A DNA stretch of 64,000 bases. Origin: Phycisphaerales bacterium (GTDB taxonomy: Bacteria > Planctomycetota > Phycisphaerae > Phycisphaerales > SM1A02). This document shows, in pieces, positions 37,316 to 56,351 of the stretch. Numbering within the stretch: the stretch's first letter is position 1; each line of letters begins with the position of its first letter. The translations under genes and the position numbers were made by a program. Under the pieces are notes generated by a model, which was not told the origin of the DNA, did no database searches, and was given only the letters and a program-made list of their open reading frames with translations. The stretch spans positions 1 through 64,000 of the forward strand of contig JABAAL010000008.1 of the NCBI GenBank assembly GCA_014238785.1, read 5' to 3'.

Positions 37316-37340
37316 AAAAAACAATCCCGCAGGTCGTTAA
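37316..37340 (+). repeat. Short dispersed repeat, copy A
   Basis: AAAAAACAATCCCGCAGGTC and following bases. Closely similar stretches occur at 51638-51663 and 51677-51700, with a shorter match (CAATCCCGCGAGT) at about 36498-36510. Three copies sit in the same orientation near the ends of minus-strand operons. The rest of 37261-37446 shows nothing I can support. Confidence 0.4.
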
Positions 37341-37446
37341 TCTGAAAGCACTTGGCCTGGCAACATCGCATTGCTATCCAATACTTGAGCCAGACCGACC
37401 ACCCTGCCATAGCGGCAAAAAAAGTATTGCACGTTGGCCTAAGGTA

Positions 37447-42466: not shown

Positions 42467-43485
42467 GCAACACTCACTTCTTCTGAAATGGTTGCGAGTT
42501 GTTCAATAATATGTTTGTTTACACCGGCAGTCGAGAATTGCTTTGCGCGAGTAATCGCGTTTGCAATTGTTCGTGCTTCCGAACTACCGTGACAAATCAT
42601 GCTGATGCCGTTCACGCCAAGAAGTGGTGCGCCACCATATTCGTGGTAGTCATAATCAGCGTAAAACTTTTTCATAATTGGCTTGAATGCTTCGGCAAGT
42701 TTTGGATCTGCTTCTGCGACATCACGAGCAATTTTTGTTAGCAATCCAGTTGCAAGACCTTCGGCAAGTTTGATGCTGACGTTTCCGACAATGCCATCGG
42801 TGATGACCACGTCTGCGCCGCCGTCAAAGAGCGTTCGCCCTTCGATATAGCCAACAAAGTTGATGTCTGGAGCAGCGCGAAGCATGTCTCGAACGAGTTT
42901 AAGGTTGCTTGTGCCCTTTTGTTCTTCGCCGCCAACATTCATAAGTGCGACTCGGGGATTATCGATACCAAGAATTTGTTTTGCGTAGATTTTCCCCATT
43001 ACGCCATACTGCGCAAGGTGAATTGGTTTTGGTTCGATGTTTGCGCCGACGTCAATGAATGCAACGGTTCCTGCAAATGTTGGAACTGCCGCTGCAATGC
43101 CGGGTCGGTGCACACCCGAGAGTCTTCGCAAGTACATTTGACTTCCAGCGACAAATGCACCGGTGTTACCTGCGGAAATAACTGCGTCAAGTGGGTTTTC
43201 TGCTTTTTGCGAACCGTCTTTGCACATCACAACAAGCGAGCTATTTTGTTTGCTGCGAACGGCATCGACTGGACTTTCATCCATTGAAATTGTTTCGGTT
43301 GTTCCGACTACTTCAACTTTGGCTGGACCAAGGGTTGTGTTTTCAATACCCTCGCGAATAATTTGTTCGTCGCCGTATAAAACAACAACGTCATCGACTT
43401 CTAGTTGTGCGGTTGCGGCAAGGGCACCCTCAAGAATAGGATCGGGCGCAAGATCGCCCCCCATCACATCAATGCCAATTCGCAT
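42463..43485 (-). CDS. plsX: Phosphate acyltransferase PlsX
   Basis: 340 residues. RIGIDVMGGDLAPDPILEGA at the start, MDESPVDAVRSKQNSSLV, AVISAGNTGAFVAGSQM and EYGGAPLLGVNG are PlsX hallmarks. It makes acyl-phosphate from acyl-ACP for phospholipid synthesis. It sits 6 nt after rpmF, the common bacterial arrangement. Confidence 0.96.
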   Translation of the reverse strand: MRIGIDVMGGDLAPDPILEGALAATAQLEVDDVVVLYGDEQIIREGIENTTLGPAKVEVVGTTETISMDESPVDAVRSKQNSSLVVMCKDGSQKAENPLDAVISAGNTGAFVAGSQMYLRRLSGVHRPGIAAAVPTFAGTVAFIDVGANIEPKPIHLAQYGVMGKIYAKQILGIDNPRVALMNVGGEEQKGTSNLKLVRDMLRAAPDINFVGYIEGRTLFDGGADVVITDGIVGNVSIKLAEGLATGLLTKIARDVAEADPKLAEAFKPIMKKFYADYDYHEYGGAPLLGVNGISMICHGSSEARTIANAITRAKQFSTAGVNKHIIEQLATISEEVSVA

Positions 43486-43491
43486 GAATGG

Positions 43492-43671
43492 TTACGCCTT
43501 AGTAGCTTTTACTTGAAGACCCGGCCGTACGTACCCGCAGCTTGGACATGAACGATGTGGCAAGCGGTTGCTGCCACAATTTGGGCAGAGCGCTAAGTTC
43601 GTGCTGTTGAGTGCGTGGTGTGAGCGACGCTTTCGCTTTCGTGCTGGGGATGTTCGTAGTTTTGGGAGCAT
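43492..43671 (-). CDS. rpmF: Ribosomal protein L32
   Basis: 59 residues. MLPKLRTSPARKRKRRSHHA is a basic N-terminus, followed by a zinc ribbon: LCPNCGSNRLPHRSCPSCGYV with four cysteines in two CxxC pairs. L32 belongs to the large ribosomal subunit. It heads the plsX-fab cluster. A TACAAT box lies 66 bp upstream (43742-43737). The usual upstream partner YceD (DUF177) is not present. Confidence 0.93.
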   Translation of the reverse strand: MLPKLRTSPARKRKRRSHHALNSTNLALCPNCGSNRLPHRSCPSCGYVRPGLQVKATKA

Positions 43672-44058
43672 CGTTCTATACCTTCTTCAAAAAACGAGCC
43701 CTCCGCGACTATGCGTGGCTCTGGAATGAATGCGGAATTGTAGCAAAAATGGGAAATCACCGCCACCTCATTGCAAATATACCCGTTTTTAGCATAATTT
43801 GGCTCAGAGCCGCATTATTCCAAAACATCCTTAGCGCAGTTTTTCTTTTTTGAGAAAATGGCTCCGTAGGAGAGTTTATTTGATCATTTCCCCAATGTGG
43901 CAACAATTCGCACATCGCTCGATACAGACCCTTTATAAATCAACAGAATGCAATCATTGCGTTAAAGGCATATCCATTGGATACACCGAAACTCGATGTC
44001 AAAGAGTTGGCTGATTTGAGCAGCGCTTCACAAGAATGATGTTTCAATGCGCTCGCTA
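43672..44058. other. 387-bp spacer with rpmF promoter
   Basis: No convincing gene is seen on either strand. TACAAT on the minus strand at 43742-43737 is the best candidate -10 for rpmF and the fatty-acid cluster; no good -35 matches it. No strong terminator with T run was found for the upstream membrane operon, only weak short stems. Confidence 0.4.
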
Positions 44059-45018
44059 TTAACTCGAGGGTATAAAATGTAGCCAATCGCCGAACAAGAA
44101 TTCGAGGCGGGCGGCAAGCAGTGCAATACGACCCATCACGGTGTAGCCAAAGGAAGCACCGAATGTAATCATAAGGAACCAAATACCAACGCGCGCTGTC
44201 TTGCCAACAAGACCCTTGTGCTCTATCGAGAAGAAGAAGTAGATCATCGCAGACAACGTCGCAACTGTCAGTAAAATTGCGTTAAACGTCGGCCAGAATT
44301 CGAAACCACCTTCGCCTGTAATCCAAAGCGGAACAATACCCGCTTTAATTTGCGCAACAAGGTCCGCTTCAACATACCCAATCATTCGGTATCCAGCAGT
44401 AATACCAATAAAGAATGCAATTGGCCATCGGCTAATCCAACCGCCACTTGGCATAAGTTGGAAGAGCAACATGATGATTAAAATCGCTGGAATAATGTAG
44501 AGCCACTGGAATCCGCCCGAAGCATCCATACCCGGCAATGTCCAACTTTGCACAAGTACGGGGAATAATTTCGCAAGCAAGTTCGGAACGAACACATCCC
44601 AAAGACCAATAACCATCACATACCCTGCCGAGGTTCCGACAACCATCGCTTCAGCAAACTTGTACGCAGGGTTATCGCCAACGAGGAACGATAAAATGAA
44701 TAAGGTAAAGATTGCGGAAAGCCACAAACCAATTGTGCGCGACCAACTTAAACTTGCTTCGCCGCTGTCGATTACTTCCTGCGTAAGCTCACTATCTGGA
44801 ACAACGTTGTAAGTTGTCCATTCAATGTCACCAGCAACCGGCGTTTGGGTAGTACTGTATTTTCCGTCAGCGTCCGCGGTGAATGCATGTTGTTCTGGCG
44901 TGATCCATACCTGACCGGTACGCGAAGTTGTCATACTCCAAACAAGCATGATTGCGCCAATCACAAAGATTATGCCCCAAATCAACGCGTTTGATTTTTT
45001 TGGTGTATCAGTACTCAT
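44059..45018 (-). CDS. Seven-helix membrane protein of the MutL/DUF6754 operon
   Basis: 319 residues with about seven membrane helices: one at the N-terminus (ALIWGIIFVIGAIMLVW), then, after a soluble loop of about 80 residues, six more. Short charged loops carry Gly/Pro turns (LPGMDASGG, MPSGGWISRWP). No transporter or enzyme motif is recognised. It is the last gene of the eight-gene unit, overlapping its neighbour by 4 bp. A core membrane subunit of whatever complex the operon builds is the best guess. Confidence 0.6.
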   Translation of the reverse strand: MSTDTPKKSNALIWGIIFVIGAIMLVWSMTTSRTGQVWITPEQHAFTADADGKYSTTQTPVAGDIEWTTYNVVPDSELTQEVIDSGEASLSWSRTIGLWLSAIFTLFILSFLVGDNPAYKFAEAMVVGTSAGYVMVIGLWDVFVPNLLAKLFPVLVQSWTLPGMDASGGFQWLYIIPAILIIMLLFQLMPSGGWISRWPIAFFIGITAGYRMIGYVEADLVAQIKAGIVPLWITGEGGFEFWPTFNAILLTVATLSAMIYFFFSIEHKGLVGKTARVGIWFLMITFGASFGYTVMGRIALLAARLEFLFGDWLHFIPSS

Positions 45019-45866
45019 GCCTGACCTCGCTTTCGACTCATAAAGAAAATCCAGTTACCAACGAGGATCAATACAATCATCAAACTGTGCGCGACCAACT
45101 GTGGTCCCATTCGACGTTTTGCTTCTTGCGCTTTGGGATTGTCTGCAATAGATGGATACGCGTCATCAATCGCAGCTTCGTATTCTGCCGCAGCTTTAAT
45201 CGCACCAAGCACACCAGCAAGTTGTTCTGGAATGTATGGATACATTTGCGGTGCCTGTACGCCCGTGCAACCTGAAACGGTTGTAATTCCAAAAGGCGTT
45301 GCAGCAAACTGCACCCATTGTTTTGTACCGGGGTCACCAGCAGAAACGTTAATAATCAAGTCCATGTCTTGAATGTTTTTAACATTCTTTGTCATAGGAA
45401 TGTCATCAAGCGAGATGCCTTTTGAATCAAGTTCAAACATACCGCGCAAGTCTTGCGTAATCATTCGAATGACTGCTTCCCCGCCTGTTTTGTAATCAAA
45501 CTTGACGTAGTCTTCGCCGTACACCAAGTCTGGGTATTCAGATTCAATCGTGTCGATTGACAAGTCAACCATCGGTGAACCAAGTGGCCAAAGCGCCATG
45601 TAATATTGCTTGTGCCCTTTGATGGAGCAATGACGCGTGAACGCTTGCGCCATTGGGAGCAATTCACCCTGCGATGCAGGATCAAAGTCGTACGACAAAA
45701 GAACGCGCGAACCATCTGGCAAATCATCAATCGCATCAAAGACCAGTTTGGCTTGCCTGGAAATAACTTCAGGAAAGACTGTCTTGGCAAGAATTGGAAT
45801 TGAAACCGCCAACAGCATTGACAGGAAAATCCAACGTCGATCTAGGTTTTGTAGTGTGTGTAACAT
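45015..45866 (-). CDS. Membrane-anchored protein with large extracytoplasmic domain, MutL/DUF6754 operon
   Basis: 283 residues: an N-terminal helix (WIFLSMLLAVSIPILAK), a soluble domain of about 200 residues, and a C-terminal helix (LMIVLILVGNWIFFMS). Both termini should be on the same side, with the domain outside. The domain contains DDLPDGSRVLLSYDFDPASQGELLP and a later NVSAGDPGTKQWVQ, and looks alpha/beta. No known family. It overlaps the following gene and is 3 nt after the preceding one. Confidence 0.6.
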   Translation of the reverse strand: MLHTLQNLDRRWIFLSMLLAVSIPILAKTVFPEVISRQAKLVFDAIDDLPDGSRVLLSYDFDPASQGELLPMAQAFTRHCSIKGHKQYYMALWPLGSPMVDLSIDTIESEYPDLVYGEDYVKFDYKTGGEAVIRMITQDLRGMFELDSKGISLDDIPMTKNVKNIQDMDLIINVSAGDPGTKQWVQFAATPFGITTVSGCTGVQAPQMYPYIPEQLAGVLGAIKAAAEYEAAIDDAYPSIADNPKAQEAKRRMGPQLVAHSLMIVLILVGNWIFFMSRKRGQA

Positions 45867-45869
45867 GAT

Positions 45870-46565
45870 TTAATCTTGCCCCAAGTAAGAACGGTCAACA
45901 CCAAGAAGAATTCGAAGGGAAGTCGCAACCACACCAAGGGCAATACCAATCGTAATCGCACGAGTTCCTGCAGTATTAGGAATTTCCATAATCCAAACAG
46001 TCAAGTTGTCAAAACGTAGCCACAGCATAGATTCAGGAAGCCAACCATCAAAGAGCCAAACGCCAGCATACGTTCGACCAAGAAGAACAATGCCCGCCGT
46101 GACAAGTAGCAACGTTGCTTCGGTGTTCTTTGCACGGAAGGCGCGGAACGCTGCAGTTGCAACATAAAACGCTAGCATCGCAAACATCATCGACGTCAAT
46201 GGTACGATCATGTGTTGGTAAATCCACCACAAACCAGAACCACTCTCAAGATAGTACCCAGACCAAGCATAGTCTGGATAGAGCGTGTTTGGATGGACGC
46301 CCATTTTGGACATACCGATAATGATGGTGCCAAAGAAACAGACAATGGTGACGAGAGAATAGCCCCAGCCTTTCCGTTGTCCCGATACTTTCATAAGGTG
46401 AAGTTTGACAAGGTTTCCCCCACCTAACACCATCGCACCGACTGCAAGAATGTTAAACCATTCTTGTGCCGTTAAACCCCAGCCCTCAGCAAAGGGGATG
46501 AAGTTCGCAATGAGCAGGACGAAGCCTGCAACTATTGCAATTACAAGTGGGACTGTTCTTTTCAC
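45870..46565 (-). CDS. Six-helix membrane protein of the MutL/DUF6754 operon
   Basis: 231 residues, about six membrane helices with short loops. A conserved-looking PLTSMMFAMLAFYVATAAFRAFRAKN segment is followed by LLGRTYAG. No recognised motif. Start overlaps the stop of the FN3-DUF6754 gene by 4 bp. Confidence 0.6.
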   Translation of the reverse strand: MKRTVPLVIAIVAGFVLLIANFIPFAEGWGLTAQEWFNILAVGAMVLGGGNLVKLHLMKVSGQRKGWGYSLVTIVCFFGTIIIGMSKMGVHPNTLYPDYAWSGYYLESGSGLWWIYQHMIVPLTSMMFAMLAFYVATAAFRAFRAKNTEATLLLVTAGIVLLGRTYAGVWLFDGWLPESMLWLRFDNLTVWIMEIPNTAGTRAITIGIALGVVATSLRILLGVDRSYLGQD

Positions 46566-47896
46566 GAGTCATCTCCCTCAATATCAGTATCTCCACCACC
46601 AAAGGAACCAAATCCCTCATTGCCGAGTATGTTGTTCTGTATATAGTTTAATGCGCCAGCGCCAAATCCATCACTCTCATCGGATTCCGTCATTGAAATA
46701 GTTGTTGCAAAGAAGATGCCAATGATTAATACTAATACGCTGAGAAATTTGCCGTAATCCTGTCCCTTAAGTGAACCGATTTGAAGCGGGTCACCTGAAA
46801 GGTACGCAGAAGCTGCGAAGAATTCTTCGCCAATCAAGGTGTAGTCGCATGATGCAACAAAGAACGGCAACTGGCTTGGCATTGCTGTACCAGCCACTTG
46901 GATCGCGCCGATGTGGTTACCTGTTTCGGCAAGAATAAGCGACTCTGCATAAAAACCGCCCATGTAAATACATGCTGCTGGTTCTTCGCGAACCATATAC
47001 CCCGTCACGCCCGCAACAAATGCAAACTGTTCATCGGTTAGATAGTGAATTCTGTCGGGTTGGTACGAGTCGGGAGCACCAGCTGCAAGATACGCTGCTT
47101 CGACCGTTTCGCGTGCAGCCGCCATCACCAACGACCGACACGTTGGCACTTCGATTTGTGCGCCGTATTCTGCCGCGGTTTTTGCAACACGTGAAAGCAC
47201 GGTTAAGCCAGCAAGCGTTTGAATTTCATTGATGTCTTGAATCCCCGCAACAAACAAAATGGGTCGTCCCATTTCGGTTGCACGACCGACGGCTTCGTCG
47301 ATTGCTTCAAGCCCTGCAATTTTTCGCACCCAAAGTTTTTTGCCCGAACGTGCGCAATTAATAAAGTAGGCAATAAACGCGCCGAATAAAAGCATCCAAA
47401 TTGCAAGCCATGCTTTTGACATGTTAAACATTTGCATCACTGGAGTAACCGATCCACTTGCGTTGCACCACGTTGACTTGTCGCCTTGATTGTCCACCGC
47501 GCAAACTCGATAATCGTATGACCAACCAAGGTTTACACTTCGATCGGTCCATTGAGATTCGCCCGCACCAATTTCAGAAACCTTGCGCCATGACGCATCT
47601 TCGTCGCTGACTTCATTCCCGTTACCGTCCGTAACTTTTCGTTCCACTGTATACGTAGCAACAATCTGTTGTGGGTTTACTTCTTGGGTGTCCGAAAGTA
47701 ATGTATTAAATACATCACTCTCCGAGAGATTCCAATGCACCTCGACGGAGTTCCCAGCGTCGTCTGGAGTGTCAGCAACAATTAAATCGGTTGGTGGCTC
47801 GGGGACAAGGGAAGGGGCTGGTGAGGGTGATTGTGCTGCGGCAAAGCAAGTCATTGACATTGCAACCACGACAGCAAGTATGTTTCGTATTCTCAT
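46562..47896 (-). CDS. FN3-like and DUF6754 membrane protein
   Basis: 444 residues: signal peptide (1-21, ending FAAA), a fibronectin type III-like domain (about 35-150, with PPTDLIVADTP, SYDYRVCAVD), a helix (about 157-178), a cytoplasmic domain of the DUF6754 type (LEAIDEAVGRATEMGRPILF onward, ending around DYGKFL), another helix (about 393-412) and a Gly/Asp-rich tail. DUF6754 has no assigned function. The topology puts the FN3 domain outside and DUF6754 inside, a layout for linking an outer contact to an inner partner. Confidence 0.7.
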   Translation of the reverse strand: MRIRNILAVVVAMSMTCFAAAQSPSPAPSLVPEPPTDLIVADTPDDAGNSVEVHWNLSESDVFNTLLSDTQEVNPQQIVATYTVERKVTDGNGNEVSDEDASWRKVSEIGAGESQWTDRSVNLGWSYDYRVCAVDNQGDKSTWCNASGSVTPVMQMFNMSKAWLAIWMLLFGAFIAYFINCARSGKKLWVRKIAGLEAIDEAVGRATEMGRPILFVAGIQDINEIQTLAGLTVLSRVAKTAAEYGAQIEVPTCRSLVMAAARETVEAAYLAAGAPDSYQPDRIHYLTDEQFAFVAGVTGYMVREEPAACIYMGGFYAESLILAETGNHIGAIQVAGTAMPSQLPFFVASCDYTLIGEEFFAASAYLSGDPLQIGSLKGQDYGKFLSVLVLIIGIFFATTISMTESDESDGFGAGALNYIQNNILGNEGFGSFGGGDTDIEGDDS

Positions 47897-47902
47897 ATTT
47901 AG

Positions 47903-49024
47903 TTATGCCTCGATAAGTTCCACATTCGCTCTGGGCACAATAACCGATTCGCCCGAACTTAGTTTTACTTCAAGTACGCGGGCTTTGGAGCCAGAGCCAA
48001 GGACGTGCGGTTCCGATGGAAGCGCACTCACGGTTCCGAGCATTCCAAAGTAAGGATCGCGGATGATTCGAAGTGGCAAACCAATTTCGAGATACCCGCC
48101 GACTTGTTCCGTCTCTTCTTCGCAATCCCCTGCCTCTAAAGGAATTATGATTTCTGGACGCATTACGCCAGCGCGAATTTGAGTTGCGCCATTGACCGAT
48201 GCTTCTTTCCCTTCAAACTTTTTAAGAAGATCGAAGGTACGACTTGCCATGGTGATATCGCCAAAGCCTTCTGTAACGATGACGGTGATCCCTTTTTTCT
48301 CGCTACCTGTAATTGCAACGCCTAGGTCGTATCCAAGAAAATCACGCAAGTCTTGGTCGTCCATGCCGCCGCCAATAAGCGCGACGACCCCAACTTTGCG
48401 CGCAGCTTCGATAGATTCTACGGAGATTCGTGCACCGCCAATAACAACGCAGCCCTTCATGTCCTCAGAAATATTATTTGCAGATATGGCTTCGTCACAG
48501 TTTTCGACTGCAAACTTAATTGGACCACACGTTTCGCCACCGATACCAAAGATACCTTGAATAAACGCTACGTCTGTTTCTATGGTGCAACCGATTTCAG
48601 GATTCACTGCAGTGACGGCACCTGTTACGTACGCCTTCACTTCAACTGGAATGTCTGGCCCGCGAAGAATGACTTGACCTGTTACATCGGAAACTGTTTC
48701 AATCGTTCCTGAGTACGGCGAGTTGTATTTCTTTTTGAACTTGCCAAAGAGTCCTGCGGTTTCAGCAATTGCTTCACCTTTTTCTACTTTCTCGCCTTCT
48801 TTGCGAAGCATTAAACTTGCAACATCTTTGGGGGGAACGGCAAGAAGGTTCGCCATGTTCAGTGGGTACACATCACCGGGCATGTAGGTTGCCGCAACAA
48901 TTTGGTTAGCGTTTACATTATCGCCAACTTTTACCATCACATCGCCTTTAATTGGCAACATGCGAATGACGGAGTACGTCATTCGATTTGTAACTTTGAG
49001 TCCAGGGGTGTATGCATGTGCCAT
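47903..49024 (-). CDS. Biotinyl/lipoyl-like barrel and KOW-like protein of the MutL/DUF6754 operon
   Basis: 373 residues, no signal peptide or membrane helix. The first third reads like paired barrel-sandwich halves (GDVMVKVGDNVNANQIVAAT, EGEKVEKGEAIAET, NSPYSGTIETVSDVTGQVI) as seen in RnfC-like and efflux-adaptor proteins. The C-terminal part (VGGYLEIGLPLRIIRDPYFGMLGTVSALP, then VLEVKLSSGESVIVPRANVELIE) resembles a KOW-type motif. There is no lipoyl-lysine motif. It could be the cytosolic adaptor between the MutL-type ATPase and the membrane proteins. Confidence 0.6.
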   Translation of the reverse strand: MAHAYTPGLKVTNRMTYSVIRMLPIKGDVMVKVGDNVNANQIVAATYMPGDVYPLNMANLLAVPPKDVASLMLRKEGEKVEKGEAIAETAGLFGKFKKKYNSPYSGTIETVSDVTGQVILRGPDIPVEVKAYVTGAVTAVNPEIGCTIETDVAFIQGIFGIGGETCGPIKFAVENCDEAISANNISEDMKGCVVIGGARISVESIEAARKVGVVALIGGGMDDQDLRDFLGYDLGVAITGSEKKGITVIVTEGFGDITMASRTFDLLKKFEGKEASVNGATQIRAGVMRPEIIIPLEAGDCEEETEQVGGYLEIGLPLRIIRDPYFGMLGTVSALPSEPHVLGSGSKARVLEVKLSSGESVIVPRANVELIEA

Positions 49025-49029
49025 AATGA

Positions 49030-50856
49030 TTATGCAGAAACGACTGCTTCCTCCATCTCTTTATACAGCGCCATGTTTTCGACCCATCGCGCAATTGTTT
49101 GTTGACATTGTTGTCGTTCTTCTGGAAGTCCAAGGGGGCGACCACGACCATCGATAACGAGACCGACTGTGCCGCCGCAAACTTCGTGTGTTACTTTCTT
49201 ACCATTGCCGGCTCCAAGGTCAAACCCGCGAGCTGGTTCGCAGACAATTGTTGCGGTTTCTTTGGGACCCATTTCAATGAGTTCGATGTCACCAAAGTTA
49301 CAGGTGCCAGATGTAGCAACATCACCAGAGAGTGTCCAACTAAAACATGGCTTGCCTTCTTTGCCAAGACCTTTTGCTGCGATACATGTCCCCAAGTAAA
49401 TCAAGCAATCTCGTTCGAATACTTGCGCTGCCGCTTCGGGGTGCACCGCGGAAAGTACGCCAAGGTGAGGCATCATAAAGATGGAGTCCTTCGCCAAGTT
49501 TGTGCAACCTTCGGGTTCAAATGCATCAATGAGCATCATTGCAGTTTGATTCATGCTTGGCGCGTGGGAAAGTACACCACCTGATGCAACAAGCAGGTTA
49601 AGTTTCATATTATCGACGATGGTATTGCCACCAGTTTGCTGACTAAAGGTGTCACCAACTGTACGTTGTTGTTGCACCCCTTTGAGCGTTGTCGCAAACT
49701 CTTTGTGTTGTTTATACGCAAGTCGTAGCGCTTCACGGGCAACGGCCTGTTCAAAGATAAGCGATTCAAGCGATTGCGGAATCGTTGTTGGTCGAATCAT
49801 TTTGTTTTTAACGCGATTTCGAAGTTGCCGTTCGTCCATATCAAACTGCACCCAACGCAAGACGTTTGGCATGGTTGCTTCTGCGCATACATTGGAGATG
49901 GAATAACTCATGCCAAGGTTTGCTGATACCGTCCGGTTAAACGTTTCGTCAAATACGCTAAAAACGTCGGTGGTTGCGCCACCAATGTCAACGCCAACAA
50001 CGTTTATGTTTTCTTTCTTTGCAATTGTTTGAAGGATGTTGCCAACCGCACCGGGCGTTGGCATGATGTCGGCATCTGTCCAATCCATAAGCATGTCATA
50101 CCCTGGAGCATGCGCCATCACGTGCTCAAGAAATACGTCATGGATTTTATCGCGGGCTGGTCCAAGATTTTCTTGTTCAAGTGTTGGGCGTAGATTCTCA
50201 ACAACAGCAAGGTCAATCCAGTCCTCTTGCAAGGTTGCTTCCACTTCGCCTGAAGCCATTTTGTTACCTGCAAAAATGATTGGCATTTCGTATTCACTAC
50301 CAAACCGTGGCTGAGGTTTTGCGGGAGCGATGAGTTCGGCAAGTTGCACAACTTTTTCGGTTGTGCCACCATCGGTTCCACCTGAAATTAAAATCATGTC
50401 AGGACGAAGTTCGCGAATACGCTGAATTTGTTCGTGCGGTCTACGTTTGTCGTTTGAAGAAATAACATCCATGACGATTGCACCAGCACCAAGTGCTGCA
50501 CGCTTTGCCGATGCCGCTGTCATTTCTGCTATCACACCAGCAACCATCATTTGAAGACCGCCACCGGCACTTGAAGTTGAAATGTACATGTCACACCCAT
50601 CGGAATCTGAAGCAGGTGTTTTTATCGTGCCGTCTTCGTTTGTGAGTTGCCTGCCTGCGAGTTCACCAACTTCGGTCACAGCATTGGTCACGCCGATGGT
50701 GACGTTTGCAAAAGGTTTTTCAACCGTGGTTGGCGCTTCGCCTCGGTATGTTTGACGATAGGTGCCATCCACTTTTTCGATGAGAATTGCTTTGGTCGTC
50801 GTACTTCCGCAATCCGTTGCGAGGATGACATTAATGTTTTCTAAATCGATTGTCAT
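49030..50856 (-). CDS. MutL-family actin-fold protein (glutamate mutase L-like)
   Basis: 608 residues. ATDCGSTTTKAILIEK is the phosphate-1 loop of the actin/Hsp70/sugar kinase fold, VGVDIGGATTDVFSVF the phosphate-2 loop, and STSSAGGGLQMMVAG with GAGAIVMDVISSND continues the MutL pattern. MutL/GlmL proteins are annotated as partners of B12-dependent glutamate mutase, but no mutase subunit is in the window and this copy is embedded among membrane proteins. It is more likely the nucleotide-driven subunit of that membrane system. ATGA overlap with the upstream 114-residue protein. Confidence 0.8.
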   Translation of the reverse strand: MTIDLENINVILATDCGSTTTKAILIEKVDGTYRQTYRGEAPTTVEKPFANVTIGVTNAVTEVGELAGRQLTNEDGTIKTPASDSDGCDMYISTSSAGGGLQMMVAGVIAEMTAASAKRAALGAGAIVMDVISSNDKRRPHEQIQRIRELRPDMILISGGTDGGTTEKVVQLAELIAPAKPQPRFGSEYEMPIIFAGNKMASGEVEATLQEDWIDLAVVENLRPTLEQENLGPARDKIHDVFLEHVMAHAPGYDMLMDWTDADIMPTPGAVGNILQTIAKKENINVVGVDIGGATTDVFSVFDETFNRTVSANLGMSYSISNVCAEATMPNVLRWVQFDMDERQLRNRVKNKMIRPTTIPQSLESLIFEQAVAREALRLAYKQHKEFATTLKGVQQQRTVGDTFSQQTGGNTIVDNMKLNLLVASGGVLSHAPSMNQTAMMLIDAFEPEGCTNLAKDSIFMMPHLGVLSAVHPEAAAQVFERDCLIYLGTCIAAKGLGKEGKPCFSWTLSGDVATSGTCNFGDIELIEMGPKETATIVCEPARGFDLGAGNGKKVTHEVCGGTVGLVIDGRGRPLGLPEERQQCQQTIARWVENMALYKEMEEAVVSA

Positions 50857-51197
50857 TTTTTTATGTTCTCTTTGGTTTCTTCCATCTCATTCTCTAACTG
50901 TTCAATGCGGTTTCGAATCCAATCGACCGAGCCGCGATGTTCTAAAAACTCTGCTACTGCGCTCCAACTTTTTGTTGGCACAAACGCTGAAATAAGCGGA
51001 GTGAAAAAATGCATTGTCTGCGACCCAATAAAATTCAAGGGGCGCCCCATTTCCACACCAATAATCGCTGGAGTGGTTAATCCGCGCCGAATGATACCCA
51101 GACACAGCTTGTCTAGGGCATTTTTTTGGATTTCATTAGGTTCTATTGGACTATCGTCGTCCACATGAAATGCATCTTTGAACCACCCTTTTTTCAT
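50853..51197 (-). CDS. Small conserved-looking protein before the MutL-type gene
   Basis: 114 residues. After a polar N-terminus comes LGIIRRGLTTPAIIGVEMGRPLNF, then FFTPLISAF, and a charged coil ending IRNRIEQLENEMEETKENIKK. There is no signal peptide. Start ATG 51197 is chosen since the longer frame to 51284 overlaps the PH-like gene. It overlaps both neighbours by 4 bp and therefore should be made in step with the ATPase. The hydrophobic middle and coiled end suggest a docking or stabilising subunit. Confidence 0.55.
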   Translation of the reverse strand: MKKGWFKDAFHVDDDSPIEPNEIQKNALDKLCLGIIRRGLTTPAIIGVEMGRPLNFIGSQTMHFFTPLISAFVPTKSWSAVAEFLEHRGSVDWIRNRIEQLENEMEETKENIKK

Positions 51198-51616
51198 GTT
51201 ACAACATCCTCTGCCAAATAACATTTCAAAGCAGAAACAACTTCGTCTCGCTTTTTGCCGTAAAATATTGACATTCCAGACCAACCATCACGATTCGACG
51301 GTTTTTTACGGGTGCAAACGTAACATAGTTCTTTGTAAAACGTCGCTCGACGAATTCTAGCCCATGTATAGAACTTGCTTCGAATTAGATATTTCGCTCG
51401 AAGACCATCCTCTGAAATAAAGTACTTCGTTGGAAATAAAAAGGTTCCTTGAGTCGCGATCAGCGTGGCTGTAAGCACTATGCCTAAAATAATGCTGTTT
51501 GAACCTATCGCAATTGCTACAAAAATGATAACCAACCACGCGAACACTGCTCTGATGGGGTGCATCGAAGCTGGGCAGGACTTCCACTGCAATTCAAAAG
51601 GCGCTCGTTCTTCCAT
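51194..51616 (-). CDS. Two-helix protein with bacterial PH-like domain
   Basis: 140 residues: two closely spaced N-terminal membrane helices (AVFAWLVIIFVAIAIGSNSIILGIVLTATLIAT) followed by FPTKYFISEDGLRAKYLIRSKFYTWARIRRATFYK, the typical entry of bacterial PH domains (bPH2/YdbT-like). It is the first gene of the eight-gene unit. ATG 51616 is preferred; a GTG at 51634 in frame is possible. TAGTAT ends 8 nt before the ATG. Confidence 0.6.
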   Translation of the reverse strand: MEERAPFELQWKSCPASMHPIRAVFAWLVIIFVAIAIGSNSIILGIVLTATLIATQGTFLFPTKYFISEDGLRAKYLIRSKFYTWARIRRATFYKELCYVCTRKKPSNRDGWSGMSIFYGKKRDEVVSALKCYLAEDVVT

Positions 51617-51624
51617 AGCCCCAC

Positions 51625-51630
51625 ATACTA
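51625..51630 (-). promoter_or_regulatory. Putative -10 element of the MutL/DUF6754 operon
   Basis: TAGTAT on the minus strand, 8 nt, then ATG 51616. One weak GTGGGG stretch lies in the gap, so a very short leader is also possible. Confidence 0.3.
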
Positions 51631-51637
51631 CCACGCC

Positions 51638-51663
51638 AATAAACTATCCCTCGGGTCGTTTAT
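51638..51663 (+). repeat. Short dispersed repeat, copy B
   Basis: AATAAACTATCCCTCGGGTC and following bases, 39 bp from copy C and similar to copy A at 37316-37340. Confidence 0.4.
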
Positions 51664-51676
51664 GGGATTTGCTTAC

Positions 51677-51700
51677 AAAAAACTATCCCGCGAGTCTTTT
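51677..51700 (+). repeat. Short dispersed repeat, copy C
   Basis: AAAAAACTATCCCGCGAGTC and following bases. It overlaps one arm of the hairpin at 51692-51727. Confidence 0.4.
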
Positions 51701-51727
51701 ATTGAATTTAGGGGAAATAAAAGACCC
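51692..51727 (-). terminator. 12-bp hairpin after birA, probable terminator
   Basis: On the minus strand GGGTCTTTTATT (51727-51716) pairs with AATAAAAGACTC (51703-51692), one G-U, 12-nt loop. A run of six T follows 9 nt further on. It lies between the birA stop and the MutL operon start. Confidence 0.55.
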
Positions 51728-51746
51728 GATGAATAGGTTATCTTGC

Positions 51747-52418
51747 TTATTTGCAGTGGGTTACGATTGCGGAGGTAGCGGCGGGTAATTCAAGGATACC
51801 AATGTCGGTTTGAAGAAGCAGGTTATGGCAGGGGTCAATACTAATAACTATGCCCTCAACGAGATTGTCACCTGAACACACTGTTTGGTGCGTACCAACG
51901 AGAATATCGCGTTTCCGCCAATGGCTAACTGCTGTATTTTCATCAAGATGTGTTGCATCAAGGACGCTTGATACGACCAAGGCACTCACTTCACCCCTAT
52001 CTGGCTCAGAGCCAAGTTGGGACAAAGCGACGGCGGTTGGGAGCGGCGCTTCCAAAATATTAAGTCCAACGCCGATTAAGCAGCGGCCTTCGCGTTGTTC
52101 GATAAGGATTCCTGCGAGTTTTTTCCCGTCAACGTATAAATCATTTGGCCACTTGATACCAATGTGATGTGTTGGAGTAAGATTGTTAAGTGCAGTTGCG
52201 AGTGTTGCAGCAACAGCAATAGGCAAGTGCTGCGTTGCTTTTTCAACCACCACCGTAACAGCCACACCACCACTTGCATCCCATGCGTTTCCTCGACGGC
52301 CCCGCCCTGCTGTCTGGTTAAAAGATACACACGCATCACCAACTTGCAAATCATGTTCTATCGCCGCATCTTGCGTTGATGTCACTTCATCAAGAACGAG
52401 TATTTGCCCCTTATGCAT
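51747..52418 (-). CDS. birA: Biotin-[acetyl-CoA-carboxylase] ligase
   Basis: 223 residues, the single-domain (non-repressor) type without an N-terminal helix-turn-helix. VLDEVTSTQDAA, the biotinyl-AMP loop FNQTAGRGRRGNAW and GIKWPNDLYVDGKKLAGIL are diagnostic. It attaches biotin to carboxylase carrier proteins, in keeping with the fatty-acid genes nearby. ATG 52418 is preferred over a TTG at 52442; it overlaps the end of nadC by 8 bp. Confidence 0.9.
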   Translation of the reverse strand: MHKGQILVLDEVTSTQDAAIEHDLQVGDACVSFNQTAGRGRRGNAWDASGGVAVTVVVEKATQHLPIAVAATLATALNNLTPTHHIGIKWPNDLYVDGKKLAGILIEQREGRCLIGVGLNILEAPLPTAVALSQLGSEPDRGEVSALVVSSVLDATHLDENTAVSHWRKRDILVGTHQTVCSGDNLVEGIVISIDPCHNLLLQTDIGILELPAATSAIVTHCK

Positions 52419-53265
52419 CCATAGCGTCCAAGCCGATGTCAATCCAAGTTGCTTGATGTATCAAACCGCCGATCGAAATTCGATCGACTCCGGTTTTAGC
52501 AATCTCACGAACCGTTTCTATCGTTATTCCGCCAGATGCTTCGAGCAGCGGTGACAAATCGGACGCATCACGAAGTACGACTGCCTTTATTAATAATTCC
52601 GGGGACATGTTGTCGAGCAAAATAATATCTACAGGTAGCTGCAACACTTTTTCAAGTTGCGCAATCGTGTCCACTTCAACTTCCACAAACTTCAACTCGC
52701 TATTTTCTTTTACGCTGTTAATTGCTGCATCAAGTCCTTTTTGCAAATCATCAAATTCTGCAAGATGGTTGTCCTTGTATAACGCCGCGTCGTGCAAACC
52801 CATTCTATGTGAAGTGCCTCCGCCACAAACGACCGCATACTTATCGAGCATGCGTAATCCGGGCGTTGTTTTTCTGGTATCGCAAATAACGCAGTCAATC
52901 CCTACAACCCTATCAACAAACGTAAATGTCTTTGTTGCAACCCCAGAAGCGTAACTAACAATATTGAGAATCGTCCGTTCGGCAACAAGAATTGCTTCAA
53001 CCGAACCCTCAAGAATTGCAATGGTTTTATCGCATACTTCTTCACCATCGTTCTCTAACACTGTCATCGAAACATCACCAAAAACATCCATCACCTTTGC
53101 AATCGGTTCAAGTCCTGCAACTATTCCCCGCCCCCGAATGTTCATCGCGAATCTGCCTCGTTGGTCGGAAAAGGACAACGAATTCGTTGTGATATCGCCA
53201 TGCAATCCGCCATCTTCCTCGAGGCATCGCTGAATCAATTTTCTCATATACAACGTAATACTCAT
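52411..53265 (-). CDS. nadC: Nicotinate-nucleotide pyrophosphorylase (quinolinate phosphoribosyltransferase)
   Basis: 284 residues. GGLHGDITT, ERTILNIVSYASGVAT, CDTRKTTPGLRMLDKYAVVCGGGTSHRMGLHDAALYKDNH and ASGGIT are the standard landmarks. It turns quinolinate and PRPP into nicotinate mononucleotide for NAD synthesis. Its ATG overlaps the stop of the kinase gene. Confidence 0.95.
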   Translation of the reverse strand: MSITLYMRKLIQRCLEEDGGLHGDITTNSLSFSDQRGRFAMNIRGRGIVAGLEPIAKVMDVFGDVSMTVLENDGEEVCDKTIAILEGSVEAILVAERTILNIVSYASGVATKTFTFVDRVVGIDCVICDTRKTTPGLRMLDKYAVVCGGGTSHRMGLHDAALYKDNHLAEFDDLQKGLDAAINSVKENSELKFVEVEVDTIAQLEKVLQLPVDIILLDNMSPELLIKAVVLRDASDLSPLLEASGGITIETVREIAKTGVDRISIGGLIHQATWIDIGLDAMDA

Positions 53266-56200
53266 TTTTTAGTATTCGTCCGCCTTGAAGAACGAGACAT
53301 CCCATCCATCAACTGAATCGTAGCCATCCCGCCGCCAATTGCCAACCGATGCCCATCGCTAGAGACCGCGATACATTCAATAGATTCATTTGAGGGGAAT
53401 GATGCGATTAAACTAAATCTATCCATATCCCATATTCCAACTGTCCCATCTGCCAGTGCTGTTGCAAATCGTTCACCGTTGGGAAAAATAACCATGTCCC
53501 ACAGTGCACTTCCAGTGGCAGTGAGTGAATTTAATACTTCCCCAGATGAAGCATCTAGTAATTGCACATTGTAATTTGCAGTTGCTGCCAAAACCACATT
53601 TTCGTTTTCAACGAACTCAATAGCGATAACATCTCCTATTGACTCACTGTGCACCCACAACTCTTTCCCCGTTTGAGCGTGCAACGCGTACATATTCCCA
53701 CCGCTGGTTGAGACAAAAATCGTATCACCGGAGTCATCAAATGCCAATGCAACAATAATTGAGTCGCCAAGTTGTTCGCTCATTATTTGTTTCGATGTCC
53801 GAGTATTCCACACGGACACCTGCCCCTTAAATGTTCCGGCAACAACGAATTTTCCGAAATGCGAAACAGCTATAGATGAAATTTGGCCATCGCATGAACC
53901 AAGCAACTCTCTTTGTTGCATATCTTCGACATCCCACAAACGGATATCCCCCTCAACGTCCCCTGTCACAACAAGCGATGTTGTTGGTATAAATTTAATA
54001 ATCGACAACTCTTGATCCACTTCTGATGGGATCATTTCATGCTCCCCTGTCGAGACTTCTATAACCTGAACACCCGAGTTAAACTCTGAAACTACTACAA
54101 GAGAGTCATTCCATACAAAAGCAATATCAGACGCAGGAAAAGTTCCAGGCACTTGCAGGGCTGTCGGAATTGATGATGTCGAACTCCACCAATGCAACCA
54201 CCCATCTCTTCCAACACTTACAAAACGGTTGTTTGCCAATGAACCGACTGACCAAACTGTCTTATCGTGTCCGCGCAGTGAATCGACAAGACTATAATCT
54301 TCAACATTCCAAATCCGCACAACGTCATCTTCACCAACCGTCGCAATCGTATCACCAGTGTGTGCCACTCCCAAAATGCCTCCGTGATTGGATTTAATTG
54401 TTGCCAATTTCGTTTCTAATTCTGCGTCCCACCAAATTAACTTGTCATCAGACCCCGCAGTAATTAACGTGCCGTCATCTAAAAACAAGACTGCATGAAG
54501 GGAACCACCATGTTCACGTATTTTTTTTAATTGCCGTTCCCCTCGATTATTCCAAACATGCATGCTACCGTCAATGGTTCCTGCCGCTAAACGATTGTGC
54601 AGAATGTCGTAGTCCAAAGTCAACACCATGCCGCTTTCCGTATTTAAACTTCGAATTAGCTCGCCATCAGTTTTCCAAACATATATGGAACCATCAGTAT
54701 GACCAGCAATAAACACGCCATCGCCCGCTGAAGTAATTGCAGTGACCGAAGAGTCTAGTTCGCCAATTGTAAGCCGTGTGCTTTTTTCAAGATCTAAGAT
54801 AGCAATTTGTCCGCTAGACAACCCAAGGAATAGCTGCTTGCCACTCTCTGAAAAATCCATTGACATGACTTTTGAAGGTAAAATCACATCACGAGAAACC
54901 TCTCGACTCTCGTCGAGCAACGCTACTCGAGTTCCCTCAAATGACACCGCAATTTGATCCCCATTTTTTGAGGTAACAAGGCCTGTGGGCCGATCTCCTA
55001 TCAACCATGTTCGTAAAGATTGATCTACGACCCCTAAAAGAAAATGCCATTCCCAGCCTCGTTGATTACGGTCCGTTGCAACGAGATGATGTTTTGCCAT
55101 TCCCCACGATTCATTAGCTATCGCAGCTTGTGCTGTCCCAATCGTTGCGGTGTACGCAATCTGCTGCGCATTCTCCCTTGCCTTTTTTTCGATTGCCAAA
55201 GCATTGCGCATGTTATTTTGGCTAGATTCAGATTCAATGTATCCCCAAATCATTCCAGCCAATCCTAACATCACCGCCAACGCCACCATGATTCCTGCGC
55301 GGAATTTTAACTGATTGCGACGAGCATACAATCGTAAACGATGTATCCTCGTTGGAGGTTTCGCGTGAATCGGTTCATTACCCAAGAAGCGACGAATATC
55401 CATCGCCATCTCAGCGACTGATTCGTAACGAGAGATTCTTTCTTTAGACAACGCCTTGGCAAGTATTTGTTCTATTTCAAATTCAATTGCCGGGTCAATA
55501 CTTCGAGGCGATGTTGGACTTGTTTCTTGCACAACAACTGGAGCCCTAAACAAAGGAATACCTTTTAAGGAATACGGAAGTTCGCCTAACATTAACTGAT
55601 ACAAGACTACTCCAAGCGAATACACATCTGTTCTCACATCAACGTCGTGCGGGTCATCGCCACATTGTTCTGGGCTCGACCACTGTAAAGTCCCCACAAA
55701 CCGACCCGCAACCGTGATTACTGTCTCAATTTCATCACCACCAGACATCAATGCTACGCCAAAGTCAATAACTTTTGGTTTGCACGAATTTGTGATAAGA
55801 ATATTCGAAGGTTTCAAGTCCCGATGAATAACTCCACGTCCGTGCCCATACTGCACAGCGTCACAAACGAGTAGAAACAGTTCCAATCGCTGATTTCTAC
55901 TGAGTTCTTCATCTTCAGAGTAATCCGTAATGGACTTACTTCCCGGAACATATTCCATTGCAAAATAAGGAAGAAGTGTATCGCCTTGAATTTGATGCCC
56001 CGAGTAATACACTTGCGCAATGCCTTGATGTTGCAGTCGTGCAAGCATTTCGCTTTCCATTTCAAAACGTTGCAACGCCGCTGGTGTTGCAGCGGCTGAT
56101 TTTACAATTTTTATAGCAACGGATCTATGTGGATGCGATTGTTTCGCCTCGTACACATTACCCATTCCACCCGTACCAATAATCTGGATGATTTCAAATT

Positions 56201-56351
56201 GGCCAATGGTCTGGCCAATCCACTCATCAGTTTTCGCGCCAACGCTTGACTCAAGCCACTCTTTGCCAGAACTCTCGCTGTCATGCGTAATCGCATTTGG
56301 GTCAAGTCCGCCATCACTTTCATCAAGAGTTATATTAGAATCGTCCACCAT
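53262..56351 (-). CDS. Membrane Ser/Thr protein kinase with WD40-repeat domain
   Basis: 1029 residues. The kinase domain (about 50-320) has GTGGMGNVY, VAIKIVK, HRDLKPSN, DFGVA and SPEQC. A single membrane helix (about 353-373, AGIMVALAVMLGLAGMIWGY) follows, then a long beta-propeller region from about 430 with repeated SGSxDxxIxxWD-like units (for example TAGSDDKLIWWD, ATVGEDDVVRIWN, VTGDVEGDIRLWD). The propeller is predicted to be outside the cytoplasm and may sense ligands or cell wall. Such fusions are abundant in planctomycetes. TATCAT ends 6 nt before ATG 56351. It leads the unit with nadC and birA, an odd pairing. Confidence 0.93.
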   Translation of the reverse strand: MVDDSNITLDESDGGLDPNAITHDSESSGKEWLESSVGAKTDEWIGQTIGQFEIIQIIGTGGMGNVYEAKQSHPHRSVAIKIVKSAAATPAALQRFEMESEMLARLQHQGIAQVYYSGHQIQGDTLLPYFAMEYVPGSKSITDYSEDEELSRNQRLELFLLVCDAVQYGHGRGVIHRDLKPSNILITNSCKPKVIDFGVALMSGGDEIETVITVAGRFVGTLQWSSPEQCGDDPHDVDVRTDVYSLGVVLYQLMLGELPYSLKGIPLFRAPVVVQETSPTSPRSIDPAIEFEIEQILAKALSKERISRYESVAEMAMDIRRFLGNEPIHAKPPTRIHRLRLYARRNQLKFRAGIMVALAVMLGLAGMIWGYIESESSQNNMRNALAIEKKARENAQQIAYTATIGTAQAAIANESWGMAKHHLVATDRNQRGWEWHFLLGVVDQSLRTWLIGDRPTGLVTSKNGDQIAVSFEGTRVALLDESREVSRDVILPSKVMSMDFSESGKQLFLGLSSGQIAILDLEKSTRLTIGELDSSVTAITSAGDGVFIAGHTDGSIYVWKTDGELIRSLNTESGMVLTLDYDILHNRLAAGTIDGSMHVWNNRGERQLKKIREHGGSLHAVLFLDDGTLITAGSDDKLIWWDAELETKLATIKSNHGGILGVAHTGDTIATVGEDDVVRIWNVEDYSLVDSLRGHDKTVWSVGSLANNRFVSVGRDGWLHWWSSTSSIPTALQVPGTFPASDIAFVWNDSLVVVSEFNSGVQVIEVSTGEHEMIPSEVDQELSIIKFIPTTSLVVTGDVEGDIRLWDVEDMQQRELLGSCDGQISSIAVSHFGKFVVAGTFKGQVSVWNTRTSKQIMSEQLGDSIIVALAFDDSGDTIFVSTSGGNMYALHAQTGKELWVHSESIGDVIAIEFVENENVVLAATANYNVQLLDASSGEVLNSLTATGSALWDMVIFPNGERFATALADGTVGIWDMDRFSLIASFPSNESIECIAVSSDGHRLAIGGGMATIQLMDGMSRSSRRTNTKK

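Follow-up and report, generated by a model that had tools for sequence, protein, structure and literature searches.

A conserved eight-gene membrane operon built around a MutL-type actin-fold ATPase in Planctomycetota and distant phyla

The genome of a Phycisphaerales bacterium (assembly GCA_014238785.1) contains an eight-gene operon built around a MutL-type protein of the actin (ASKHA) fold. The window, meaning the whole stretch of DNA analyzed here, comprises 64,000 nucleotides (positions 1 to 64,000 of contig JABAAL010000008.1), and the operon consists of eight minus-strand open reading frames, running from 51616 down to 44059. The operon is a conserved multi-protein system, which keeps a near-constant gene order in distant phyla. 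We give an even chance to the view that it encodes an ATP-driven inner-membrane machine, in which the MutL-type protein (g3) and an adaptor (g4) drive a membrane module (g5-g8), most likely for the transport or release of a ligand. Databases mislabel the g3-type ATPase as the helper of a vitamin-B12 enzyme, and it is named after an enzyme which its hosts lack. At least six core proteins are kept in distant phyla and in nearly all sampled anammox genomes, yet are without an assigned function, and the conserved set probably does something important. The genes are the following.

g1, 51194..51616, minus strand: 140-aa PH-like membrane protein with a hydrophobic hairpin; weak match to bPH_6
g2, 50853..51197, minus strand: 114-aa soluble protein, whose short conserved core reads RGL.TPAI..LEM..PL.F.GSQ
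g3, 49030..50856, minus strand: 608-aa MutL-type actin-fold (ASKHA) predicted ATPase; PF13941, 430 bits
g4, 47903..49024, minus strand: 373-aa soluble adaptor with barrel-sandwich-hybrid, alpha/beta and KOW domains
g5, 46562..47896, minus strand: 444 aa, signal peptide, FN3, transmembrane helix, DUF6754, transmembrane helix; PF20539, 399 bits
g6, 45870..46565, minus strand: six-helix membrane protein without a Pfam family, with a highly conserved cytosolic RAFRA loop
g7, 45015..45866, minus strand: Rossmann-like domain, predicted exoplasmic, between two transmembrane helices; AlphaFold2 model
g8, 44059..45018, minus strand: six- or seven-helix membrane protein without a Pfam family, with a conserved DNPFYKFAEH loop

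The genes are tightly packed, with overlaps of 4 nt at g1/g2, g2/g3, g5/g6 and g7/g8 and gaps of 5 nt (g3-g4), 6 nt (g4-g5) and 3 nt (g6-g7), exactly as an initial annotation made from the sequence alone had described. That annotation counted five or six membrane proteins, and five are predicted here (g1, g5, g6, g7 and g8). Both MutL and DUF6754 are single-copy in this genome of 1.8 Mb.

Gene order was compared by profile searches, which covered both the loci found with g5 and regions of further planctomycete families. Scanning a genome collection with g5 yielded 31 loci from Phycisphaerae, Acidobacteriota, Zixibacteria, Neomarinimicrobiota, Poribacteria and one unplaced bacterium. The order in Acidobacteriota is g1-g2-g3-g4-g5-g6-g7-g8 and in Neomarinimicrobiota g3-g4-g2-g5-g6-g7-g8; two planctomycete loci (L065, L069) place g5-g8 ahead of g3-g4, and the membrane module recurs in Zixibacteria and Poribacteria. 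The flanking genes vary by phylum, being diacylglycerol kinase and cytidylyltransferase or oligopeptide ABC genes in Neomarinimicrobiota, and BatA/VWA and DUF4175 in Acidobacteriota. Since the outside genes differ in this way, the eight-gene set stands alone. The loss of the operon outside this genome, which the initial annotation had named as evidence against its own reading, is not seen.

The components also travel together. The co-occurrence sample comprised 294 Planctomycetota genomes and five tested components, which were positive as follows: DUF6754 (g5) in 76, g7 in 77, g8 in 73, g4 in 71 and operon-type MutL in 74. The last count was classified from 86 PF13941-positive genomes after weak matches and GlmL-type genomes were taken out, the GlmL type of six loci being assigned by profile scores and that of one genome (G098) by genus. 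All five components occur in 64 genomes and none in 214, leaving 16 partial sets. Pairwise Fisher p-values among the five range from 3e-51 to 2e-70, values which overstate the strength of the association, as related genomes are not independent. Genus-level counts agree (DUF6754 in 58, g4 in 52, g7 in 59 and g8 in 55 of 210 genera). In the genomes behind the named loci, MutL is present in 11 of 11 checked and g4 in seven of eight. The single chromosome of G024 carries the set in four places (g4–g5 at 0.29, MutL at 0.79, g8 at 2.30 and g7 at 3.53 Mb), and in G283, G105 and G088 it is split over two or three places; because these genomes keep the set though it is scattered, the co-occurrence is not due to linkage. 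Nearly all of the anammox genomes sampled carry the component set; the family concerned (f48) was recognized as anammox by the hydrazine synthase alpha domain, found in 9 of the 10 genomes tested.

The identity of g3 is central to any functional reading. It belongs to the Pfam MutL family (PF13941, E-value 1.2e-128, 430 bits against a gathering score of 27, profile positions 1-450 aligned), as the initial annotation had it. The nucleotide-site motifs TDCGST, STSSAGGGL, DIGGATTD and SGG.LSH are kept in 26 operon-type sequences, so that, by sequence, g3 has the phosphate and adenosine sites of an ASKHA ATPase and is predicted to hydrolyze ATP. The same family includes GlmL, the accessory of B12-dependent glutamate mutase, and the NCBIfam GlmL equivalog (NF040745) is the best named match of g3; on this basis g3 could be read as an ordinary GlmL which happens to lie beside unrelated membrane genes. 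The score reaches only 237.5 bits, where the cut-off is 475, a test which alone is not decisive, as a mutase-linked control (L107) also falls below the cut-off with 437 bits. On the operon MutL profile, the GlmL-type genes L103–L108, which come from the same phylum, score only 29–135 bits, whereas operon members that are complete reach about 880–1121. In the tree, a fully supported branch of 4.2 changes per column divides the operon-type MutL from the GlmL rows, several of which are long and of unsure mutual placement. Additionally, glutamate mutase (methylaspartate mutase E, PF06368) is absent from all 21 operon genomes searched, but in both controls, G235 and G290, it lies beside GlmL; the GlmL-type gene L107 directly precedes methylaspartate mutase E, and L104 precedes a B12-binding protein. 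Linkage to glutamate mutase in relatives, which would have told against the initial annotation, was thus not found. Together with the near-complete co-occurrence of operon-type MutL with the membrane genes, these results led us to reject the GlmL identity of g3 as far as sequence allows, and we give it next to no chance of being correct. The suggestion in the initial annotation that this ATPase is tied to a membrane complex, and not to glutamate mutase, is supported, the role in transport being still conjectural. In one Zixibacterium (G298, L089:1468-3324), a stop codon splits the MutL gene into two frames, through either an assembly error or a real break.

The adaptor g4 was initially labeled a barrel/KOW protein, and this architecture is borne out across its relatives: among 31 of them, 23 match RnfC_N, 22 Biotin_lipoyl and nine KOW, while the copy in the window falls just under the RnfC_N cut-off (24.7 against 25.6 bits). 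MutL and g4 work together, as judged from a natural fusion of the two, L112:8275-10749 (minus strand), in which an 824-aa MutL paralogue runs in frame into the g4 barrel and alpha/beta parts, without KOW. Genomes of the family concerned (f72) also carry the operon, and the fusion possibly represents a second pathway for the ATPase pair. Separate pairs of MutL and g4 paralogues exist at L111:8506-13565 and L113:2001-5017, not adjoining g5-g8. The pair in L111 adjoins a protein with a single transmembrane helix and a coiled-coil-like match.

The membrane module is well conserved and, for the most part, without named relatives. The g5 protein belongs to DUF6754 (PF20539, E-value 1.1e-119, 398.7 bits against a gathering score of 27), and its FN3 domain is confirmed by sequence and by model, in agreement with the first labels; the model is poor outside FN3, and a structure search with it returned FN3 only. 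The DUF6754 domain is predicted to be cytosolic, and its conservation (0.82) is the highest among the long domains of the membrane proteins. The positive-inside pattern predicts six helices for g6, with the N-terminus inside, and conservation is for the most part higher in its inner loops (0.55-0.84) than in the outer ones (0.38-0.57). A threshold scan finds six helices in g6 and six in g8, so that the initial helix count stands for g6; the seven helices first given to g8 could be reached only if a hydrophobic stretch at its N-terminus, present in this lineage, is a helix, as it may be. The g7 model (predicted local distance difference test, pLDDT, 90) consists of a helix, a Rossmann-like domain and a second helix, and a structure search with it found no specific PDB relative, all matches being generically Rossmann-like and poor in TM score. 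No credible Pfam match was found for g6, g7 or g8, and profile comparisons detected no homology between g5 and g7 or between g6 and g8. Sequence searches of the PDB with g3, g4, the DUF6754 domain, g6, g7 and g8 returned nothing significant.

The copy numbers, compiled by hand from DUF6754, PF13941 and g4 searches, are asymmetric. Fourteen genomes have at least two DUF6754 copies; operon-type MutL is present once in 12 of these, twice in one and not at all in G037, a possibly incomplete genome. The g4 gene follows the MutL pattern, except in G099, where no g4 was found. One MutL/g4 pair accompanies two to three diverged membrane modules in 11 of the 14, and outside this group a Zixibacterium likewise has a single MutL and a single g4 for its three modules. 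Tandem g7 copies fall in separate deep branches of the g7 tree, and the module duplications are therefore old. Copy numbers and conserved cytosolic faces together suggest that a shared cytosolic ATPase unit acts on a four-protein membrane complex.

The mechanism that we propose begins with g3, which would hydrolyze ATP as a unit with g4. This cytosolic pair would dock on the cytosolic face of the module, which is made up of the conserved inner loops of g6 and g8 together with the DUF6754 domain of g5. By way of g5, g6 and g8, the ATPase cycle may then reach the exoplasmic side, where the Rossmann-like domain of g7 and the FN3 domain of g5 lie. The presumed outcome, direction and substrate included, would most likely be a ligand moved or released across the membrane, and one ATPase pair would serve several modules, much like the shared energizing unit of energy-coupling factor (ECF) transporters. 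Several points weigh against this proposal. No transporter family matches g6-g8, the neighboring genes across phyla point to no substrate, and ASKHA proteins are chaperones or kinases more often than transport motors; also, where a genome has several diverged modules, these could together form one larger complex as its subunits, and not be alternatives. Transport is the favored function as a best guess, with a chaperone or gating role as a possible alternative.

Its main rival is a membrane chaperone or reactivase, with MutL and g4 using ATP, in the manner of the Hsp70-fold diol-dehydratase reactivating factor, to assemble, remodel or reactivate g5-g8, which would themselves work without ATP. 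The ASKHA fold fits such an activity, and one ATPase for several modules fits it equally well, so that the evidence hardly separates it from transport; no known-enzyme motif is seen in g5-g8 as a client activity, and we regard this explanation as possible but rather unlikely. An envelope sensor is a more doubtful proposition still: g7 and FN3 would detect a ligand or stress on the exoplasmic side and pass the signal via DUF6754 to the ATPase, which, according to its nucleotide state, would control a cytosolic target through the g4 KOW domain. The exoplasmic Rossmann-like domain, the FN3 domain and the KOW domain all suit this role, and KOW domains of this kind are known to bind either RNA or factors of transcription and translation. 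However, no consistent linkage to a regulator, kinase or output gene is seen, and two polytopic proteins exceed the usual needs of a sensor. Finally, the actin fold, and the occurrence of the system in planctomycetes including the anammox bacteria, which have an internal membrane compartment, could indicate a filament machine, in which the MutL-type protein polymerizes on the membrane and organizes the envelope or internal membranes. This is very improbable, given that the nearest relatives of the MutL-type protein are not known filament formers and that the system is also found in phyla without internal compartments.

The two remaining genes, g1 and g2, would be accessory to the proposed machine. 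Against a close relative (L033), the ratio of nonsynonymous to synonymous polymorphism (pN/pS) is 0.06-0.15 for g3-g8, 0.25 for g2 and 0.44 for g1, values which point to strong purifying selection on g3-g8 and weaker selection on g2 and g1. The g1 gene, which has an alternative GTG start at 51634, has homologues in Phycisphaerae, Acidobacteriota and some other planctomycetes; the hydrophobic hairpin of the two-helix, PH-like protein first described holds, but the PH-like label is weak (bPH_6, E-value 0.006, below cut-off). In relatives, g2 adjoins g1 or g3 or sits between g4 and g5.

Known defense systems and mobile cargo were considered and rejected for the operon, as PADLOC models matched none of the eight genes and a tblastn search with g4 found no match in either the plasmid or the phage collection. 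No RNA elements were found in 43400–52000. Between the upstream gene and g1 (51637-51741) lie two direct repeats of 34 nt, 82% alike and 39 nt apart, with a third copy, inverted and looser, and a further loose copy at 37319-37341. Shuffles yield none by chance, and the repeats are possibly an interspersed repeat or a regulatory element. Upstream of the operon, here and in close Phycisphaerae, is a gene for a 1029-aa protein (53262-56351, minus strand), which reads as a putative Ser/Thr protein kinase with a C-terminal WD40-like repeat region.

In the open-access papers searched, none mentions DUF6754 or PF13941, an absence which is not proof, and searches on GlmL, and on anammox with glutamate mutase, turned up nothing about this system. 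The operon provides a defined gene set for culturable planctomycetes and for existing anammox proteomes.

To our knowledge, no machine of this composition has been described, although its parts resemble those of several known systems. The C-terminal KOW domain of g4 recalls NusG/Spt5, but g4 has no NGN domain match. Its N-terminal domain is similar to the barrel-sandwich-hybrid domain of RnfC and NqrA; however, the operon has no other Rnf/Nqr subunit and no iron-sulfur family match, and g5-g8 match no Rnf/Nqr family. With GlmL/MutL, g3 shares the ASKHA domain, but differs in its C-terminal extension of about 125 aa, its half equivalog score, the missing mutase, and the constant company of g4 and the membrane module. 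The diol-dehydratase reactivating factor, an Hsp70-fold ATPase chaperone, is of the same broad fold class and likewise exerts an ATP-driven action on a protein complex, but acts on a soluble B12 enzyme and has no membrane module. The ECF transporters offer the closest arrangement, and only an arrangement, of one shared cytosolic energizing unit with several membrane modules per genome. Their ATPases are ATP-binding cassette (ABC) proteins, whereas the operon has no ABC ATPase and its membrane proteins have no ECF family: no Pfam or NCBIfam match to ABC-type EcfA, EcfT or an S component was found in the eight genes. Tentatively, and at clearly less than an even chance, the operon may represent a new class of membrane machine, in which an actin-fold ATPase, and not an ABC, P-type or rotary one, drives one to three interchangeable four-protein modules through a single ATPase-adaptor pair. 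If an actin-fold ATPase does power a membrane process, this would be a new way of energizing membranes.
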